A stretch of DNA of 64,000 nt, taken from contig JAGVSJ010000002.1 in NCBI GenBank assembly GCA_019720975.1, forward strand, positions 62,001 to 126,000. Reading direction: 5' to 3'. Shown in pieces: positions 7,939 through 55,940 of the stretch (within the stretch, counting starts at the first letter, position 1; each line of letters begins with the position of its first letter). The notes beneath the pieces were generated by a model, which was given only the letters and a program-made list of their open reading frames with translations, was not told the DNA's origin and ran no database searches. Source of the stretch: Candidatus Sysuiplasma superficiale. Lineage in GTDB: Archaea; Thermoplasmatota; Thermoplasmata; Sysuiplasmatales; Sysuiplasmataceae. The position numbers were made by a program, and so were the translations under genes.

Positions 7939-8023
7939 GCGAGGGTAGCCAAGTATGGCCAAAGGCGGCAGACTCAAGATCTGTTCTCGAAGGAGTTCCT
8001 CGGTTCAAATCCGAGCCCTCGCA
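7939..8023 (+). tRNA. tRNA-Leu (anticodon CAA)
   Basis: An 85-base class II tRNA. The acceptor stem pairs GCGAGGG with CCCTCGC, discriminator A. The anticodon stem GCAGA/TCTGT encloses loop CTCAAGA, giving anticodon CAA, which reads UUG. A long variable arm follows, then the T arm CTCGG-TTCAAAT-CCGAG. No intron is present and CCA is not encoded. Confidence 0.95.
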
Positions 8024-49207: not shown

Positions 49208-49939
49208 CTATTGCTTCTGTCCGGTGCTGAGTTCCTGCTGTATCTGCTTTAGCTCATAACTGCTGCTTGACTTCTGCATGTATGCGGCTATATCGTTTCT
49301 TACGGAATAGGGCCTGTGGACACCGAAGAAGCATTCGCTCGGAACGGCTCTGGGAACATCTGTCTGCCGCAGGTTTATTCTTCCCGCAGCGGTATCCCTC
49401 CCTGCAATATTTGCCCCTGAACCAATGCCCGCTGCCGTTACAGGTATGATGTTTCCAAATGAAAATATCCTGCCGAGTATTCCCATATGCACATCGATGT
49501 CAACCAGATTCTCATACCTCACATAAAGCTCATTATATGTCAGAAATTTCCGTATCATCGCTATTCTGAAATTGGTGATGTAATATCTGTATGCCCTGCG
49601 GTAATAATCTGCCAGAATGAATGCGACGATGCCAGCAGCAACCGTCAGTATGCCAAGGAAATATGACGCAACAGACCTCAGAAAGGTGAAGCTCCTCAGC
49701 AGAATGACGGCCACTAATATAAGGAGGAGCAGCGACAGAAACGTCAGCCAGTGCCGGTGTTTCCTTGTAAGCACAAGTGCGGCAATTGAAAGCAGAAATG
49801 TTACAGATATCCAGAAAAGCGCGTATGTACCCGCGGCTGTAGTCCCGAAAATAAATGTGCTATGGGTAGCAACCGATGAAAAAAATGGCTTCAGGTAGTC
49901 CTTCCATGTCTTTGAGAACAAAACAGCGAAATAGATCAA
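49208..49939 (-). CDS. membrane protein with PH-like (DUF304/bPH2) domain, last gene of the operon
   Basis: 243 residues from a TTG. Three or four membrane helices are followed by a PH-like region: YYRRAYRYYITNFRIAMIRKF, then YENLVDIDVHMGILGRIFSFG. This is the DUF304 pattern known from YdbS/YdbT-type proteins. The frame is open beyond 49939 and encodes a further helix and a charged segment, PDEKLVKELHPSR, back to a TGA at 50063-50065. No ATG, GTG or TTG occurs in that part. Either a rarer start is used or a frameshift lies near 50030. The role is unknown; its operon neighbours suggest a part in the membrane machine. Confidence 0.7.
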   Translation of the reverse strand: MIYFAVLFSKTWKDYLKPFFSSVATHSTFIFGTTAAGTYALFWISVTFLLSIAALVLTRKHRHWLTFLSLLLLILVAVILLRSFTFLRSVASYFLGILTVAAGIVAFILADYYRRAYRYYITNFRIAMIRKFLTYNELYVRYENLVDIDVHMGILGRIFSFGNIIPVTAAGIGSGANIAGRDTAAGRINLRQTDVPRAVPSECFFGVHRPYSVRNDIAAYMQKSSSSYELKQIQQELSTGQKQ

Positions 49940-50222
49940 TCCCCAGGCAATGAAAACTATTCCGACAAGATAAATTCGAATGAAGGAGAGTCTGCTGGGA
50001 TGAAGCTCCTTTACAAGTTTCTCATCTGGGAAAAGCTGTATATTCGTACTGATTCCGTCCTTTCAGGTTATTTGTTCGAACCGAGGTGTGTGTATTTTGT
50101 ACGGTGTTATATAATTCACCGTATAAGGATATCAAATATTGCGAAATTCATAGCGGAATCTGTCGGACATTCAGCCTGCAGGCATGACCATCCACGACAG
50201 GAAAGTTCATCTGAGCTTATCC
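49940..50222 (-). other. upstream coding-like extension and promoter of the PH-like gene
   Basis: From 50062 to 49940 the minus strand continues the frame of the PH-like gene without an accepted start codon. A TATA-like AATTATATAAC (RC of about 50107-50117) lies further upstream. The gene may therefore have its own promoter in addition to the operon promoter. Nothing else was seen between 50118 and 50222. Confidence 0.45.
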
Positions 50223-50777
50223 TCATCGCGTCCTGATCCCTCGGTTGGATCTGCTGCCATATAAAGGGCTTTCCGCGCGACCATATGCCTTCACAACATT
50301 GCTGCTGCCAGCCTGCAAAGCTGATCTTAAGAGAACATAGCGCCTGAGCCTTCTTTTTATCTCGTCATCGATACTGACGTAATTCCAGTCGAGAATTACG
50401 TTTCCATACAAATCGGTGAAGCGCAGTCTGCAGCCCCCAAGGAGTCTGTGAGCCAGACTGCTGTCGATTCTCATCTTTATGACGTTTTCAATGCACCTCC
50501 TTCTTCTAATGAGAAAGATCACAGTTGTGGTTGCTTCTCCGCTGCGGGTATCTACCGTATGTACCGTTGTAATCCAGAGAATGAAGGGGAAAAGGCAGAC
50601 AGCAGTCAGCTGGACAGGTGCGATTATCGCGAAATGCAGTAGTTGTGATTGGTTCGCTGTCTCCAGTATGAATGCGGCCGCAAACGACTGGAGCGTGAGC
50701 AGCAATAGCATAATGGCGGATATCACCATGTAAGGATAAAGCGAAGGTCTGATGCGGATCTTTTCTTCAGCTCTCAC
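50223..50777 (-). CDS. second PH-like membrane protein
   Basis: 184 residues. Two N-terminal helices (YPYMVISAIMLLLLTL and IIAPVQLTAVCLFPFILWI) are followed by a cytoplasmic domain. Its DSSLAHRLLGGCRLRFTDLYGN segment resembles the strand-loop-strand core of DUF304/bPH2 proteins. It follows the 229-residue gene by 22 bases. Together with the downstream gene it makes a pair of membrane PH-like proteins. No function is known in this context. Confidence 0.65.
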   Translation of the reverse strand: MRAEEKIRIRPSLYPYMVISAIMLLLLTLQSFAAAFILETANQSQLLHFAIIAPVQLTAVCLFPFILWITTVHTVDTRSGEATTTVIFLIRRRRCIENVIKMRIDSSLAHRLLGGCRLRFTDLYGNVILDWNYVSIDDEIKRRLRRYVLLRSALQAGSSNVVKAYGRAESPLYGSRSNRGIRTR

Positions 50778-50799
50778 CTTATGAACCCTCCGCGGAGCA

Positions 50800-51489
50800 T
50801 CATGCCCGACCGCCGAGCCTGCTTCGCTCCCCGGCTATGGAGGCACCGGTTAGAAGGCCACAATGGAAGGAGAGCATGGCGAGGCTTGCCGATGAACCTT
50901 CATTCACAAAATCATGCAGGCACCTTTTCGCTGTATCAACGGCAGTTCCGGTCGCGCTGTATTTACCCTCAAGTGCAGAAGCCATTGAAATTGATATCAC
51001 GTCCAGTTCAGGTATACTGGAGTGCATATCAATCTCGTTGAGGAGTTCCTTTGCAGCTGAAATTGAATCCCCAGTTGATTCGCCCGGACTGTTGGTCTGC
51101 CTTACCGGGCTGAAGCTTTCGAGAGTCACTGCCGCGGATTTTTCTCCAGCGGTAAAGCGTAAATGTGGGTATTCAATTAGATTTGCTGCGAGTTCTAGTG
51201 CATCCAACTGGCCTTTGAGCCATCCGGACCAGAAAGAGATCTCGATGAGTGTTTCAGGCCGATCCCCAGTCATACCTGAAGCCGAGCCAGCCTCCGGGCC
51301 CCCGCCTGAAGTCATATTCCTCCTTATCTGGCCTGCCCACCATATGCCCGAAAGGGAACTGCTATCGAGTATGGATACGGCCTCCCGCACGTCCTGTCCT
51401 ATCTCATTCAGCCATTCGTTGAGAACCTCCTTGATGCGTTCCATTTCCAAATCTGCAGATTTCCGGTCTGTCTTTCTTTCACTTTTCAC
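50800..51489 (-). CDS. unknown soluble protein coupled to the VirB4-like gene
   Basis: 229 residues from a GTG that overlaps the VirB4 stop (GTGA). It is hydrophilic with a charged N-terminal helix, a low-complexity Ser/Gly stretch (SGGGPEAGSASG), and two helical regions, ISFWSGWLKGQLDALELAANLIEY and LSFHCGLLTGASIAG, which look like two copies of one motif. No transmembrane helix and no recognised family. Translational coupling to the ATPase suggests a cytoplasmic partner. Confidence 0.7.
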   Translation of the reverse strand: MKSERKTDRKSADLEMERIKEVLNEWLNEIGQDVREAVSILDSSSLSGIWWAGQIRRNMTSGGGPEAGSASGMTGDRPETLIEISFWSGWLKGQLDALELAANLIEYPHLRFTAGEKSAAVTLESFSPVRQTNSPGESTGDSISAAKELLNEIDMHSSIPELDVISISMASALEGKYSATGTAVDTAKRCLHDFVNEGSSASLAMLSFHCGLLTGASIAGERSRLGGRA

Positions 51490-53198
51490 AGGATTCCACC
51501 TCCGGCAACGTACTCCAATCTGTTGAGTGACAGAAGCGCGAGCGATGCCATGAAACTATGAAAAGATGGCACTGAGGATGATTCTGAATTGCAGACACTG
51601 AATTCAATCTCGCTTGAATCATGGAGGAGAGGGATTTTCCTGCCAGGCATTAGTAATATACTTCGGCTGCACCTTGCCTCCCTTGGCGTGTTGCTGTTCA
51701 CGAATTCCATTTCATTCTTATTCAATTCAAGTGCCTCAGACAGTTTTACCTCTGTCCTCTCATGGGCAAATATGAAAGCAGAGGATGCATTGTTGAAAAT
51801 ATTCCCGTTCGAACCAAGAATGACATCGTTCAGATTCTGCGTTATGAGGACAATACCCGTGTTGTAGTGACGTGAATGGCGCATCGACTTCGAAAGATTC
51901 GAGAAGATTGATGCATCCTCTGCGAATTTCCAGGCTTCATCAATGAATATGCTCTTTCTTCCATCAATTCGTCTGCAAAGAATGAGTATGCACTCAAGCA
52001 GAAAGACCGAGACGGCTCTCCTCAAACTTTCTTCCATACCCGAATAGTCGAATGCGTTGACCGTACCGATTGAACCGAATATCCAGCAGCCGTCAAGCAT
52101 GAACCGAAGATCTCCCTTCAGCAGCCTCTCGACCAGGGAAGCGGCCTCATGAAGACCTTCCGCAAGCAGGTCTGAGTTTATTGATGAAAGGACGGCACGA
52201 AGGGGAATATCCGGCCTTTCAGCCATCTTTCTCCTTATTCTTGATTCAAGATCAGCTCCCAGACCCATGATGCCCCTGAATGGACTGCAAACAAGGTTGA
52301 TGACAGCAGCAAGCAACTCACTGTCGGTCGAATAAGTCAGGTTCCCGATCCCGATACCGAACTGCATTAAGTCAAAATAATTGCCGCCAACGAAATGGGT
52401 GACCCACTCAAATTCTCCAAGCGGGTCGAGAATGAAATGATAGTTATTCCCGGAGCGTTTTCCTCTCAGCAGCATCAGCTTTGCAAAGAAACTTTTGCCG
52501 CTTCCGCTCTTTCCTACTATTACTGAGTTGAAGTTGGAACCTTTGAATCTGTCAATTATGACCGGTGAGAGATCGTTTGCGTCTCTGCCAATATAAGCTC
52601 CGTCGCGATCCATAAGCGGGGTCTGTGTGAATGGGATGAGTGCCGGAAGGGTGCGGTCACTCACAAGCACCACAACAGGAAAACAGGGCTTGCCGGGAAG
52701 GAACGCGGTGTGAAGTTCATCCTGCCTGTATTTTCCGCTGTAAATGCCTATGCCATCTGATCTGAGTTCTGATTCAAGAGCCTCGACCCTTGATGCAAGT
52801 TCGTCCAGTCTGAATGCCGATACTCTGAATATTATGGAAGCATCGAAAAGCATAAGTGAATCTGAGAGTATCTCCTGCTTCAGTTCTTCGAGCCGTGCCT
52901 GAAACTGCGTTAGATGCAGGATGTGTCTGCCTGTATCTGAGCGATAAGCTATCTCTGCTCCGCACCTTGTCAGTGCCCTGTCTATCCTGGACAGTGATGA
53001 TGCCCTGCTGAGAGGATAAGTTGAGACAGAAACTGAAACATATCGATAGCGCCTGAGGAGACCGCTGATGAAGAACTCCGGAAGTGCAGAGGGAAGGTGT
53101 TTTACAGCCAAATAGGAATGAAATGCGCCTTTTTCCCACCTGTATCTGTGCCTGATCGCCGGAAGCCGGGAGACACCTTGGGCAGTACGCTTTGCCAT
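51486..53198 (-). CDS. VirB4/TraC/CedB-like conjugation-type ATPase
   Basis: 570 residues. An N-terminal ~200-residue domain precedes LMDRDGAYIGRDANDLSPVIID, the segment that leads into the RecA-like core in VirB4. Walker A is VGKSGSGKSFF near residues 226-236, Walker B is SIFIDEAWKF near residue 415, and the Gln sensor is in GIVLITQNLND. The family drives substrate or pilin movement at type IV secretion systems, and CedB has this role in Sulfolobus DNA import. ATG 53198 overlaps the preceding stop as TGATG; the longer reading begins with a weak TTG. Confidence 0.88.
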   Translation of the reverse strand: MAKRTAQGVSRLPAIRHRYRWEKGAFHSYLAVKHLPSALPEFFISGLLRRYRYVSVSVSTYPLSRASSLSRIDRALTRCGAEIAYRSDTGRHILHLTQFQARLEELKQEILSDSLMLFDASIIFRVSAFRLDELASRVEALESELRSDGIGIYSGKYRQDELHTAFLPGKPCFPVVVLVSDRTLPALIPFTQTPLMDRDGAYIGRDANDLSPVIIDRFKGSNFNSVIVGKSGSGKSFFAKLMLLRGKRSGNNYHFILDPLGEFEWVTHFVGGNYFDLMQFGIGIGNLTYSTDSELLAAVINLVCSPFRGIMGLGADLESRIRRKMAERPDIPLRAVLSSINSDLLAEGLHEAASLVERLLKGDLRFMLDGCWIFGSIGTVNAFDYSGMEESLRRAVSVFLLECILILCRRIDGRKSIFIDEAWKFAEDASIFSNLSKSMRHSRHYNTGIVLITQNLNDVILGSNGNIFNNASSAFIFAHERTEVKLSEALELNKNEMEFVNSNTPREARCSRSILLMPGRKIPLLHDSSEIEFSVCNSESSSVPSFHSFMASLALLSLNRLEYVAGGGIL

Positions 53199-53851
53199 CA
53201 ATCATACCCCCCGATACCCCTAACTGGTCTGTGCACCTGTGTCACGCCACTTATGCTGGAATCATATGGCCTGACAGTTCGTGACAGGTATGCAAGCATA
53301 ACTGCCTGTTCGCCTTCGGAGACTGACGCGTAAAAGCCTCTTGGAACATAGTCAGTGTCGATTATAATTTTGCGCCATGGGGCCGGTTCCGACCAATCAT
53401 CTGTGAGACACCTCGATGATGAGATACACACAAATTTTGCAGGAGAATTCTCACGGCAGCATACATCCACATAAGATGAGACAATGGTGTTCCTTGCATT
53501 TTCAGTAGCAGAGATGAAATTGACATCATCCAGAACAAATGACATCTGGGAAGCTTTGGACACAGCACCATAGCCTTTGGATGCCGCAACTCCTGTGGAA
53601 AACCGCACCAAAGGCAGCAGCGGACCACCTCCCTGAAATATATGAGGCATAAAGTGCCTGAGAAGCACGGCTGCAAGTCCGGCGAAACAGAAGACAATGA
53701 ACACTGAGAAGTCATTTCTGCTTCGGAACTGGGCAAAAAACATGCCCGAGGTGGCGATGATGCAGAAAAGAATGAGTTCTGTTGAAGAAAACGGTCCAAT
53801 TACTGGTGCGTCGAATCTGAGATCCGGCGGAACGTAACACTGCTCACTCAT
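53198..53851 (-). CDS. VirB3/PrgI-like membrane protein with long C-terminal domain
   Basis: 217 residues. The N-terminus YVPPDLRFDAPVIGPFSSTEL followed by two helices (residues about 20-70) is the PrgI/VirB3 layout, a small inner-membrane partner of VirB4. Usual members are about 90-120 residues; here a further ~130-residue soluble part with CCRENSPAKFVC follows and has no recognised family. The ATG overlaps the VirB6-like stop by 8 bases (ATGAGTGA) and its own stop overlaps the VirB4 start, so the three genes are translationally coupled. Confidence 0.7.
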   Translation of the reverse strand: MSEQCYVPPDLRFDAPVIGPFSSTELILFCIIATSGMFFAQFRSRNDFSVFIVFCFAGLAAVLLRHFMPHIFQGGGPLLPLVRFSTGVAASKGYGAVSKASQMSFVLDDVNFISATENARNTIVSSYVDVCCRENSPAKFVCISSSRCLTDDWSEPAPWRKIIIDTDYVPRGFYASVSEGEQAVMLAYLSRTVRPYDSSISGVTQVHRPVRGIGGYD

Positions 53852-54977
53852 CGCTGTCATCCTTCGGTGCGTATATTTTGTGCGGGACTGTGTCAGGTCT
53901 GAAATTTTCACTGAATCTGATCGACCTTCTTATTCGTGGAACACGGCTGGAGGATGATCCCAGACGAGACTGAATCGACTCAGACAAACGTTCGACACCT
54001 GAACCCAGAGCTCTTGCGTGAAACATCCCTGCCGAATACAATCGTGCCGGGTCACGCAAAGTTCTGAAGAAGCCCTGGGAGGGGGCTTGTCTCACTGCGC
54101 CGACCCTTCCGTGTGACAGGATTGATGAAAGTGGATATGAAACGAAGCCGGATGCATATGAAATAGCCCCCAATCCTGCCATTCCGGCGCCCATTATCAC
54201 AGCGGACGCCGCGGGCATGCCGAGCTGTTGCATGATCCTTGAACCCGCAGGCGAGATGAGAAACGGTACAATTAGGGGGAGGAGATAAGTGCCTCCGATG
54301 ACAAGTTGACCGGACTGATAAGAGGTAAATGCAGAATAAGAAACTGAAACGCCAATCTTGAGCGCGACTGCGATGAAGAATGGAAGGAATGCCATCTCGG
54401 CGAATATTGATACCATCTTTTCGGCAAGTCCGCGTGTCCATTCAATTGAATAACACAGAAGCATCAGAGGCATGAGAGAGGCCGTAAAGAAGAGCAGTAG
54501 GACCCTCATCACCAGCACGAGGTACAGGAGTCCCACGACTATGGTGAGAAACACAAGTGTAAGAATGCCATAACCCCCGAGCTTGCCTATGACCATAGCA
54601 GAGTAAGCCGAAAGTCTGCCATAAGGCATGACTGCAGCCGTTATTGCATCGTTGACATCCAGGACGAGCTGGCAGATGTAAAGAGTAAAGGGCATCAGGA
54701 CAAGGGAAAAGACAAGCGTGGCGATAGATCGCCTGTCAAGATTTATACCCGAGAGATTGCGGCCGGAGAAATAGGAGTATGCGACCGCGATGAGAAAGAT
54801 CGAGGAAAGGGCATATGATATTGTCAAAACTGAATTCCATGTCTGATAAACGCCAGTATTGAACAGTGTTGTGCTTGTCGAGAGAGCTGGAACGATAGCT
54901 TTTAGAAGAGAGGTGAGACCGGATGCCAGCATACTGTCAATAAAAGGAACAAGTCCGGAAAATATGGAGAGCGACAT
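53844..54977 (-). CDS. VirB6/TrbL/CedA-like polytopic channel protein
   Basis: 377 residues. Six or seven membrane helices occur in the first ~290 residues, with the TrbL-like central block LVFLTIVVGLLYLVLVMRVLLLFFTASLMPLMLLCYS and EWTRGLAEKMVSIFAEMAFLPFFIAVALKIG. A basic cytoplasmic tail follows. Arrangement and hydrophobicity match VirB6/TrbL and the archaeal CedA channel rather than a substrate transporter. The ATG at 54977 is preceded by GAGGTGA at 6 bases; the longer open frame to 55112 is not supported. Confidence 0.78.
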   Translation of the reverse strand: MSLSIFSGLVPFIDSMLASGLTSLLKAIVPALSTSTTLFNTGVYQTWNSVLTISYALSSIFLIAVAYSYFSGRNLSGINLDRRSIATLVFSLVLMPFTLYICQLVLDVNDAITAAVMPYGRLSAYSAMVIGKLGGYGILTLVFLTIVVGLLYLVLVMRVLLLFFTASLMPLMLLCYSIEWTRGLAEKMVSIFAEMAFLPFFIAVALKIGVSVSYSAFTSYQSGQLVIGGTYLLPLIVPFLISPAGSRIMQQLGMPAASAVIMGAGMAGLGAISYASGFVSYPLSSILSHGRVGAVRQAPSQGFFRTLRDPARLYSAGMFHARALGSGVERLSESIQSRLGSSSSRVPRIRRSIRFSENFRPDTVPHKIYAPKDDSDE

Positions 54978-54979
54978 AA

Positions 54980-55087
54980 TCACCTCATGATTCTTTCTGC
55001 CACATACTCCACGACCTTCGACACGATGACAGAAAGTACGATTCCGGTAATGGCTGTCAGCCCTGTCATGAACTCTGATGTCATCAT
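54980..55087 (-). CDS. 35-residue single-helix membrane protein within the operon
   Basis: A short gene between the pilin and the channel gene: ATG at 55087, TGA at 54980-54982. It reads MMTSEFMTG, then a helix LTAITGIVLSVIVSKVVEYV and a charged end ERIMR. Its start lies 2 bases after the pilin stop, and its stop lies inside the ribosome-binding site of the next gene. The tight fit between two real genes and the membrane helix argue for a true gene. It may correspond to small subunits such as CedA2, but this is inference. Confidence 0.6.
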   Translation of the reverse strand: MMTSEFMTGLTAITGIVLSVIVSKVVEYVAERIMR

Positions 55088-55089
55088 GC

Positions 55090-55431
55090 TCACGCGACCA
55101 GTGACTGGGCAAGAGCTACAAGGAAGGACGAAGCGAAGAGAAGGAATATGCCAAATGTCACGTCAATGAAGTATTTCCTTGCCCTGTATCTCTGTTCCGG
55201 GTTGCCGTTACTCAGCATCCACATGTAAGCAGTTATGACATAACCTATTGCAGCCACAATTGTTCCTACAGCGATCAGCAGGTTTCTCACATTGTTCAGA
55301 GTACTCACAAGTTCCTGCTGGGGGGTGGTTGCCGCAAGTGCAACGCCTGACTGGACAAACAACACCCCCAGCACCATACACACAAACCAGCTGTTGCGGA
55401 TAAACCGCACTCCGGACTTAATTTTACACAT
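55090..55431 (-). CDS. VirB2/TrbC-like pilin (CedA1-like)
   Basis: 113 residues. A long signal sequence (SWFVCMVLGVLFVQSGVALA) ends at ALA-A, leaving a mature protein of about 81 residues. It has two hydrophobic helices (LLIAVGTIVAAIGYVITAYMWML and VTFGIFLLFASSFLVALAQ) joined by a short basic loop, NPEQRYRARKY. This is the layout of VirB2, TrbC and the archaeal CedA1/TedC pilins. ATG 55431 has GGTGA 9 bases upstream. It is the first gene of the machine operon. Confidence 0.8.
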   Translation of the reverse strand: MCKIKSGVRFIRNSWFVCMVLGVLFVQSGVALAATTPQQELVSTLNNVRNLLIAVGTIVAAIGYVITAYMWMLSNGNPEQRYRARKYFIDVTFGIFLLFASSFLVALAQSLVA

Positions 55432-55439
55432 GGTTGAAT

Positions 55440-55476
55440 CACCTGATGTGAGAATGAAAAGGCGATATATAAATAT
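55440..55476 (-). promoter_or_regulatory. promoter of the secretion-like operon
   Basis: The minus strand has TTTATATATC (RC of about 55464-55473) about 35 bases before the pilin ATG and GGTGA at 55440-55444. The whole 55432-55504 stretch is strongly AT-rich, including an AATATATTTAATATAATG run, and separates the operon from the upstream 124-residue gene. A separate transcription start for the machine genes is likely. Confidence 0.5.
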
Positions 55477-55504
55477 TAGTAAATATATTTAATATAATGA
55501 ATAA

Positions 55505-55879
55505 TTATTTCTTTGCTTCAAGCGAATACGAACGTTCAATACCGTTCATAATGTGTATGAGTGCTGACTCAAAGCCTTTCTGAAAATCGGTCCTCTCCCG
55601 TTCAGGCTGACTCCAGAGTTTGAGCAGTTCCGATCTGATCAGTTCCAGTGCATCACAATGAATCTGTTCTGGTCTGGCTTGCTTCAGCAGAGTGTTGACA
55701 ACCTCACTTATGCTTATTCTGCATCTCTTTTCACTTTCCTCCATTTCACGTCTCAGCCTTATCAGTGATTCCCATCCAACACTGTCGAACTCCACGAGTC
55801 TCTTGAACGTGGTGTTCTGGGACTGCCGTGGTGTCTCGCTGCTGCTGTTGTCGATTCCACGCACACTGGTGTTAACCAT
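55505..55879 (-). CDS. unknown helical protein upstream of the secretion-like operon
   Basis: 124 residues, hydrophilic and helical, with no recognised family. A central ISISEVVNTLLKQA and KRLVEFDSVGWESLIRLRREMEESEKR could form a ribbon-helix-helix-like or coiled-coil fold. The start ATG GTT AAC ACC overlaps one copy of a GTTAACACC motif that recurs upstream, so a regulator acting at its own promoter is plausible but unproven. It is transcribed in the same direction as the machine genes, with a 73-base AT-rich gap. Confidence 0.6.
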   Translation of the reverse strand: MVNTSVRGIDNSSSETPRQSQNTTFKRLVEFDSVGWESLIRLRREMEESEKRCRISISEVVNTLLKQARPEQIHCDALELIRSELLKLWSQPERERTDFQKGFESALIHIMNGIERSYSLEAKK

Positions 55880-55940
55880 GCACTGTTAATCTGATTACTC
55901 GATTTATCAACGAAACTGTTACATGTAACATGTTAACACC
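55868..55940. promoter_or_regulatory. palindromic divergent control region
   Basis: GGTGTTAAC (55868-55876) and GTTAACACC (55932-55940) form an inverted pair across about 55 bases. Between them lies a perfect 12-base palindrome GTTACATGTAAC (55918-55929), directly followed by TGTTAACA (55931-55938). The region lies between the 124-residue gene and a rightward Cys-rich gene, so it could control both. The binding protein is unknown. Confidence 0.5.

Follow-up and report, generated by a model that had tools for sequence, protein, structure and literature searches.

A putative minimal type IV secretion machine domesticated in Thermoplasmata, with DNA as its likeliest cargo

The window analysed here, a 64,000-nucleotide stretch of contig JAGVSJ010000002.1 of Candidatus Sysuiplasma superficiale, carries on its minus strand, from 55879 to 50223, tightly packed genes for a ribbon-helix-helix (RHH)-like protein, a pilin, a one-helix protein of 35 amino acids (aa), a VirB6/TrbL-like channel, a VirB3-like protein, a VirB4 ATPase, a soluble protein and a membrane protein. 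We propose, with a probability of about 0.55, that this operon encodes a minimal machine of the type IV secretion system (T4SS) kind, domesticated in Thermoplasmata and most likely moving DNA. Its core, a pilin, a VirB6-type channel, a VirB3-like protein and a VirB4 motor, is encoded together in one chromosomal place. An earlier reading made from the letters alone (the sequence-only reading) had described a minus-strand run of overlapping genes for T4SS-type parts with three overlapping junctions, and our reading of the window DNA confirmed both: all frames that it named are present on the minus strand, the VirB6 and VirB3 genes overlap by 8 bases (53844-53851), and the VirB3/VirB4 and VirB4/soluble-protein junctions are exactly TGATG (53200-53196) and GTGA (51489-51486). 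Two starts were corrected, the VirB3-like gene beginning at 53851 and the VirB4 gene at an ATG at 53198. For comparison, eight genomes of the host family, belonging to two genera, were sampled and seven complete loci were read. Because the operon frames are kept in seven genomes at 16-80% protein identity, they are not chance frames.

The pilin gene (55090-55431) encodes a 113-aa protein of VirB2/TrbC type, which matches the Pfam models TrbC (PF04956, 2e-9) and T4SS_pilin (PF18895, 7.6e-8), both above cut-off. As the sequence-only reading had it, the predicted protein has a signal peptide and two helices; the cleavage site is ALA-A at about residues 32-35, and the helices come with a basic loop. 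Its mature part is highly conserved and its signal peptide variable in the seven genomes, and in the family comparison no other part of the machine is conserved as well as the pilin. The single-helix membrane protein of 35 aa (54980-55087), also named in that reading, proved to be a regular member of the locus, with a one-helix frame of about 33-35 aa in the same slot in all seven family loci. The next gene (53844-54977) encodes a 377-aa protein that matches TrbL (PF04610) at 1.3e-4, below the curated cut-off; TrbL also matches five of the 31 class homologues (best 1.1e-6), supporting a polytopic channel of VirB6/TrbL type. A profile search of the Protein Data Bank (PDB) with the channel returned nothing credible, and single-sequence structure predictions of the channel and the soluble protein, at a pLDDT of 48-49, were not used for fold searches.

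The VirB4 gene (51486-53198) encodes a 570-aa protein whose Walker A (GKSGSGKS) and Walker B (FIDEAW) motifs mark it as a VirB4-family ATPase, an assignment borne out by matches to AAA_10 (1.3e-11) and the TraG P-loop domain (5e-11) in Pfam, and of its family profile to the solved VirB4-like chain 4ag5 in the PDB (3.5e-23). In NCBIfam, its best matches are to the mycoplasma/Clostridium conjugation ATPases NF045975 (2.6e-29) and NF045971 (1.5e-28), both setting in only within the model, as for a VirB4 that lacks its first part, whereas the CedB model NF041017 gave 2.1e-6 and 26.6 bits against a cut-off of 700 bits, so that the protein is not a CedB equivalog. Judged by these scores, the window VirB4 stands much nearer to the VirB4 proteins of Gram-positive and mycoplasma conjugation than to CedB. 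Plasmid and viral collections held only distant ATPase relatives. The sequence-only reading had proposed a common descent with Ced, the system of Sulfolobales and Desulfurococcales, and with Ted; this part was amended, since the ATPase lies off the CedB branch. Neither the channel nor the pilin matched any Ced model in NCBIfam. The machine is thus not a Ced with CedB, although it would work like Ced and its Thermoproteales counterpart, Ted.

The VirB3/PrgI-like gene (53198-53851) encodes a membrane protein with a P-x-x-L ... GPF motif, then an N-terminal two-helix stretch and a C-terminal domain. The window protein itself has no direct Pfam match. Aligned with hhalign to 30 same-slot proteins of other class loci, five of which are VirB4 fusions, it gave an E-value of 3.5e-8 at a probability of 95% over 144 columns, and VirB4 carries the same-slot protein as an N-terminal fusion in five genomes of two families (G204 and G382 of f9; G034, G209 and G293 of f17; loci L038, L039 and L072-L074). 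PrgI, the Gram-positive VirB3, matches the G204 fusion at 9.6e-4, below the curated cut-off, and is the commonest Pfam match among the 24 unfused same-slot members, at best 0.0028, again below cut-off. The alignment and the fusions support the VirB3-like assignment of the sequence-only reading. They also bear on the place of the gene border: the match of the window VirB4 to the mycoplasma VirB4 model begins only at position 315 of 894, the hhalign alignment takes in the C-terminal domain of the VirB3-like protein, and in the G204 fusion the PrgI stretch covers residues 25-101 and the TraC match comes after it, from residue 185 (profile position 65) on. From this layout we infer that the border falls inside the VirB4 N-terminal domain and that the VirB3-like gene encodes the hairpin plus the first piece of VirB4. 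In L038 and L039, from G382 and G204, the fusion adjoins a very long reading frame; L038 also shows a coupling-protein stretch (TraG-D_C), and both loci are probably a mobile version. In families f13 and f26 (L044, L045, L049, L078 and L079), an extra membrane protein of about 95-165 aa stands between the VirB3-like gene and VirB4.

VirB4 is present in all eight host-family genomes, and the seven complete loci have an identical order of pilin, small helix, VirB6, VirB3-like protein, VirB4, soluble protein and membrane protein. As far as the contigs reach, all seven are flanked by topA and a bPH_2 gene on one side and by GNAT, cysS, ATPase-like and enolase genes on the other, giving the chromosomal location read from the window alone a fixed site, and no empty site was seen among them. 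VirB4 identity to the window protein drops to 31-32% between the genera, implying that the shared arrangement is old. The same site and order despite this divergence argue for an old, vertically inherited chromosomal system rather than a mobile element, and by this comparison the operon is a permanent part of the chromosome in the host family.

The core extends beyond this family, and the relatives agree with the Thermoplasmata-type host that the sequence-only reading had supposed. A single-sequence VirB4 search found homologues in 154 of 400 class genomes at 1e-8, and an iterated VirB6 profile placed VirB6 beside VirB4 in 38 loci and detected it in 161 of 400 class genomes (79 of the 192 good ones), in families f1, f9, f13, f17, f26 and f31, as a single copy in 153 of the 161 positive genomes; the figure of 161 is a class-wide count, and per-family prevalence is available for f1 only. 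In a VirB4 tree of 48 rows, f1, f13, f17, f26 and f31 each form one clade with 99-100% support, and f9 forms one clade apart from the fused copies of two genomes. Because the tree follows families, inheritance appears mainly vertical within them, and on the profile matches the machine core is common to six families of the class. In genus g10 (L041, L042, L048 and L050), the T4SS adjoins the same kinds of core genes, identified by eye as OMP decarboxylase-like, DNA methyltransferase-like, TruA-like and fibrillarin-like, which again suggests a fixed chromosomal place.

The observation that no relaxase, coupling ATPase or integrase is visible at the locus holds, and a linked relaxase plus integrase, which would have made the operon an ordinary integrative element, was not found there. 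In a scan for the relaxase family PF03432, none was present in the host genome or its seven family relatives. In the host genome, three coupling-protein queries found no match beyond HerA: PF02534 matched only a short HerA stretch, and PF10412 and a coupling-protein-like ATPase of family f31 matched nothing. The DUF87/HerA-type ATPases there are HerA and the operon VirB4 only. Since the host assembly is 95% complete in 100 contigs, the absence of a coupling protein and a relaxase is likely, but not certain. Some class members have kept a coupling protein, as indicated by family f31 (L043, L080, L081 and L082), where a coupling-protein-like ATPase directly follows VirB4 (TrwB_AAD_bind, 4.8e-8). 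Unlinked homologues of this ATPase occur in six of the eight family genomes in variable contexts, with two copies in G064 (L084-L090). These solitary proteins are mostly about 850 aa long, with a conserved N-terminal domain (FYSLxLPQxVDF...).

VirB4 ATPases drive pilus biogenesis, and the pilus and transport steps of the scheme proposed here follow established family roles. The pilin would be exported by Sec and cut by signal peptidase after ALA, and the VirB3-like protein would complete VirB4 and tether it under the VirB6-like channel. VirB4 could then extract the mature pilin from the membrane into a thin VirB2-like pilus, after which the same motor may drive DNA through the channel, with chromosomal strands of a sister cell as the likeliest substrate. 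The DNA would serve recombination repair, as in Ced and Ted, and an own relaxase would be unneeded if, as we propose, the genes of the machine itself are not transferred. The helical soluble protein and the small membrane proteins might be family-specific scaffold or adaptor subunits. DNA is suggested as the cargo because the operon resembles Ced and Ted in its core, in its place on the chromosome and in lacking a relaxase, and Ced is a DNA importer (PMC9905601, PMC11868833); by this analogy, DNA exchange would be the likeliest function, which we favor somewhat over all others taken together. Several points weigh against it. HerA, ParA or Rad50 genes accompany Ted (PMC9905601), whereas the operon itself contains no DNA-processing or repair gene; the VirB4 is, by its profile matches, not of CedB type; PDB profile searches with the pilin gave no credible match to solved structures, including pilins; the unlinked coupling-protein-like ATPases of the family could feed the machine; and neither the substrate nor the direction of transport is readable from sequence.

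The alternative that survives best, although we consider it unlikely, is protein export by a chromosomal T4SS, with effectors or toxins delivered to neighbour cells or symbionts. Relaxase-less (MOBless) chromosomal T4SSs are often protein exporters in bacteria (PMC3158045), and the family-specific subunits could be adaptors; however, neither the operon nor its surroundings in the seven syntenic loci include a variable gene that looks like cargo, conservation of the mature pilin is strong, and the host genome yielded no coupling protein, whereas few protein exporters lack one, Ptl and Brucella VirB being named (PMC12102498). Less probable still is a pilus for adhesion, aggregation or attachment only, in which VirB4 would serve just for pilus building. 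The known role of VirB4 in that process and the conservation of the pilin beyond all other machine parts would fit such a pilus, as would the pili, of unassigned type, that join cells in acid mine Thermoplasmatales (PMC3750248), but the retained VirB6-type channel and the class-wide VirB6-VirB3-VirB4 set suggest translocation. Finally, an integrative conjugative element (ICE), or a remnant of one, with an unrecognised archaeal relaxase is very improbable and was rejected: although archaeal conjugative elements also lack recognisable relaxases (PMC6563490, PMC12857230), Aciduliprofundum was reported to have an ICE (PMC3158045), and several copies occur in the class members G204, G382, G268 and G244, two of which have the fused VirB3-VirB4 and a coupling-protein-like neighbour, the seven complete loci share an identical site across two genera with no empty site, the VirB4 tree follows families, no tRNA in the window is closer to the operon than 7939-8023, and no integrase was seen in the syntenic flanks.

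The subunits added to the VirB2-VirB6-VirB3-VirB4 core, which the sequence-only reading had listed as extras, are supported by their conservation, with one amendment. The 229-aa soluble protein (50800-51489), probably all-helical, has no Pfam or NCBIfam match and is confined to the host family, being found in all seven family loci and in no other family's locus; an internal repeat suspected by eye was unsupported on checking. The last operon gene (50223-50777) encodes a membrane protein of 184 aa, made of two helices plus a C-terminal domain, likewise present in all seven loci; it has no Pfam match, and its PH-like character was read by eye only. No relatives are known of the soluble protein or of the small membrane proteins. 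Of the two PH-like membrane proteins that had been assigned to the machine, this one stands in the operon, whereas the other, a bPH_2 protein (49208-50011, minus strand; PF03703, 6.7e-6), is probably a separate neighbour and not a subunit, because about 210 bases lie between its gene and the operon and its conservation is much higher (53-65% identity versus 31-48% for VirB4). The bPH_2 gene starts upstream of 49939, apparently at an ACG near 50011, and the window has no ATG, GTG or TTG between the upstream stop and the conserved N-terminus. An ACG after a GGA-rich stretch is kept in the window and four relatives, with ATG in L034, making a conserved ACG start codon possible.

Upstream of the operon, a palindrome, TGTTACATGTAACA (55917-55930), is present in all seven complete family loci, in both genera, with 0-2 mismatches, and its exact copy occurs only once in the 2.06-Mb host genome. 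A search of that genome for a wider regulon found other sites with two mismatches, no commoner than for a reversed control. The palindrome is therefore a candidate dedicated operator and might be the site of a dedicated regulator. A TATA-like element, TTTATATAT (55465-55473, minus strand), precedes the start of the pilin gene by about 35-40 bases; the three further genomes of the host genus have TTTAAATA at that position, and in the sister genus the palindrome is immediately followed by a TATA-like, A/T-rich stretch that precedes the pilin. The 124-aa RHH-like protein (55505-55879, minus strand), a regulator or DNA-binding accessory, has no Pfam match and was read as RHH by eye. Its gene is a single copy in all four host-genus genomes and in none of the four of the sister genus, and because the palindrome is not so limited, something other than this protein may read it. 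A Sulfolobus-like UV box (ANTTTC) beside the window palindrome was discarded, since it is not kept in all relatives.

Parts of such systems have been noted before. Golyshina et al. (2016) gave, in one sentence, T4SS components of Cuniculiplasma divulgatum, namely VirB4 (arCOG04034), a multipass protein (arCOG05369) and a membrane protein (arCOG05340), together with a VirD4-family ATPase (PMC5155288). These are probably the same class-wide cluster in Thermoplasmatales; that paper neither treated it as a machine of pilin, VirB6, VirB3 and VirB4 nor looked at its synteny, distribution or function. VirB4 was also named in E-plasma (PMC10354927), and the Aciduliprofundum ICE was counted in A. boonei by Guglielmini et al. 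(2011) (PMC3158045). Li et al. (2025) described archaea as being without VirB3 homologues (PMC11868833), whereas thaumarchaeal ICEs had earlier been listed with VirB3 and VirB6 (PMC6563490). To the knowledge of Beltran et al. (2023), a conjugative apparatus domesticated for DNA transfer was unreported outside the Ced and Ted organisms (PMC9905601), and our literature search, which covered papers outside subscription, found none that describes a T4SS domesticated across the class Thermoplasmata. An operon of pilin, VirB6, VirB3 and VirB4, passed on by vertical descent in about 40% of the sampled class genomes, would add a second archaeal phylum, and would show another taming of conjugation together with a candidate mechanism of DNA exchange there. 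Some cluster-bearing families appear to hold cultured species, so the hypothesis is testable.

Among known systems, the MPF_FATA conjugative systems of Gram-positives, mycoplasmas and archaeal elements share with the operon the best-matching ATPases (NF045975/NF045971), VirB6 and, probably, a PrgI-like VirB3 beside VirB4; in contrast, the window system is fixed in the chromosome, has no relaxase or coupling protein found in its host genome, and has a VirB2-type pilin, said to be absent from FATA systems (PMC12102498). The T4SS of Patescibacteria is likewise chromosomal and mostly relaxase-less, with a VirB4 of FATA descent, PrgI and VirB2-like pilins (PMC12102498), but the window system is archaeal, has a single conserved pilin instead of pilin arrays, lacks a detected coupling protein in the host genome, and has no VirB8 or VirB1 recognised. 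Ted (TedC, TedA and TedB), compared by architecture alone, is also chromosomal and relaxase-less, with a cleavable-signal pilin adjoining a VirB6-like channel gene and a VirB4-type ATPase (PMC9905601). The window host belongs to another phylum, and its compact single operon has a VirB3-like subunit, a small helical protein and two further subunits, and is flanked by topA, GNAT, cysS and enolase instead of the HerA, ParA or Rad50 neighbours that are common, though not universal, in Ted. Ced (CedA, CedA1, CedB and CedD) shares the chromosomal setting, a pilin, a polytopic channel and a motor of the VirB4/HerA superfamily, as well as, apparently, the distribution of VirB4 N-terminal parts over two proteins, a domain that CedB and CedD were proposed to share out (PMC11868833). 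In the window, however, the ATPase is a VirB4, the split-off piece would be joined to a VirB3-like hairpin instead of a second ATPase, and the pilin has a signal peptide. By analogy, the machine likely works like Ced and Ted, and we tentatively suggest, at somewhat less than even odds, that it is a third domesticated DNA-exchange machine beside them, very old in Thermoplasmata, with a VirB4 of FATA-type descent, a VirB3-type subunit bearing the split VirB4 front piece, and its own single-target operator in the host family.

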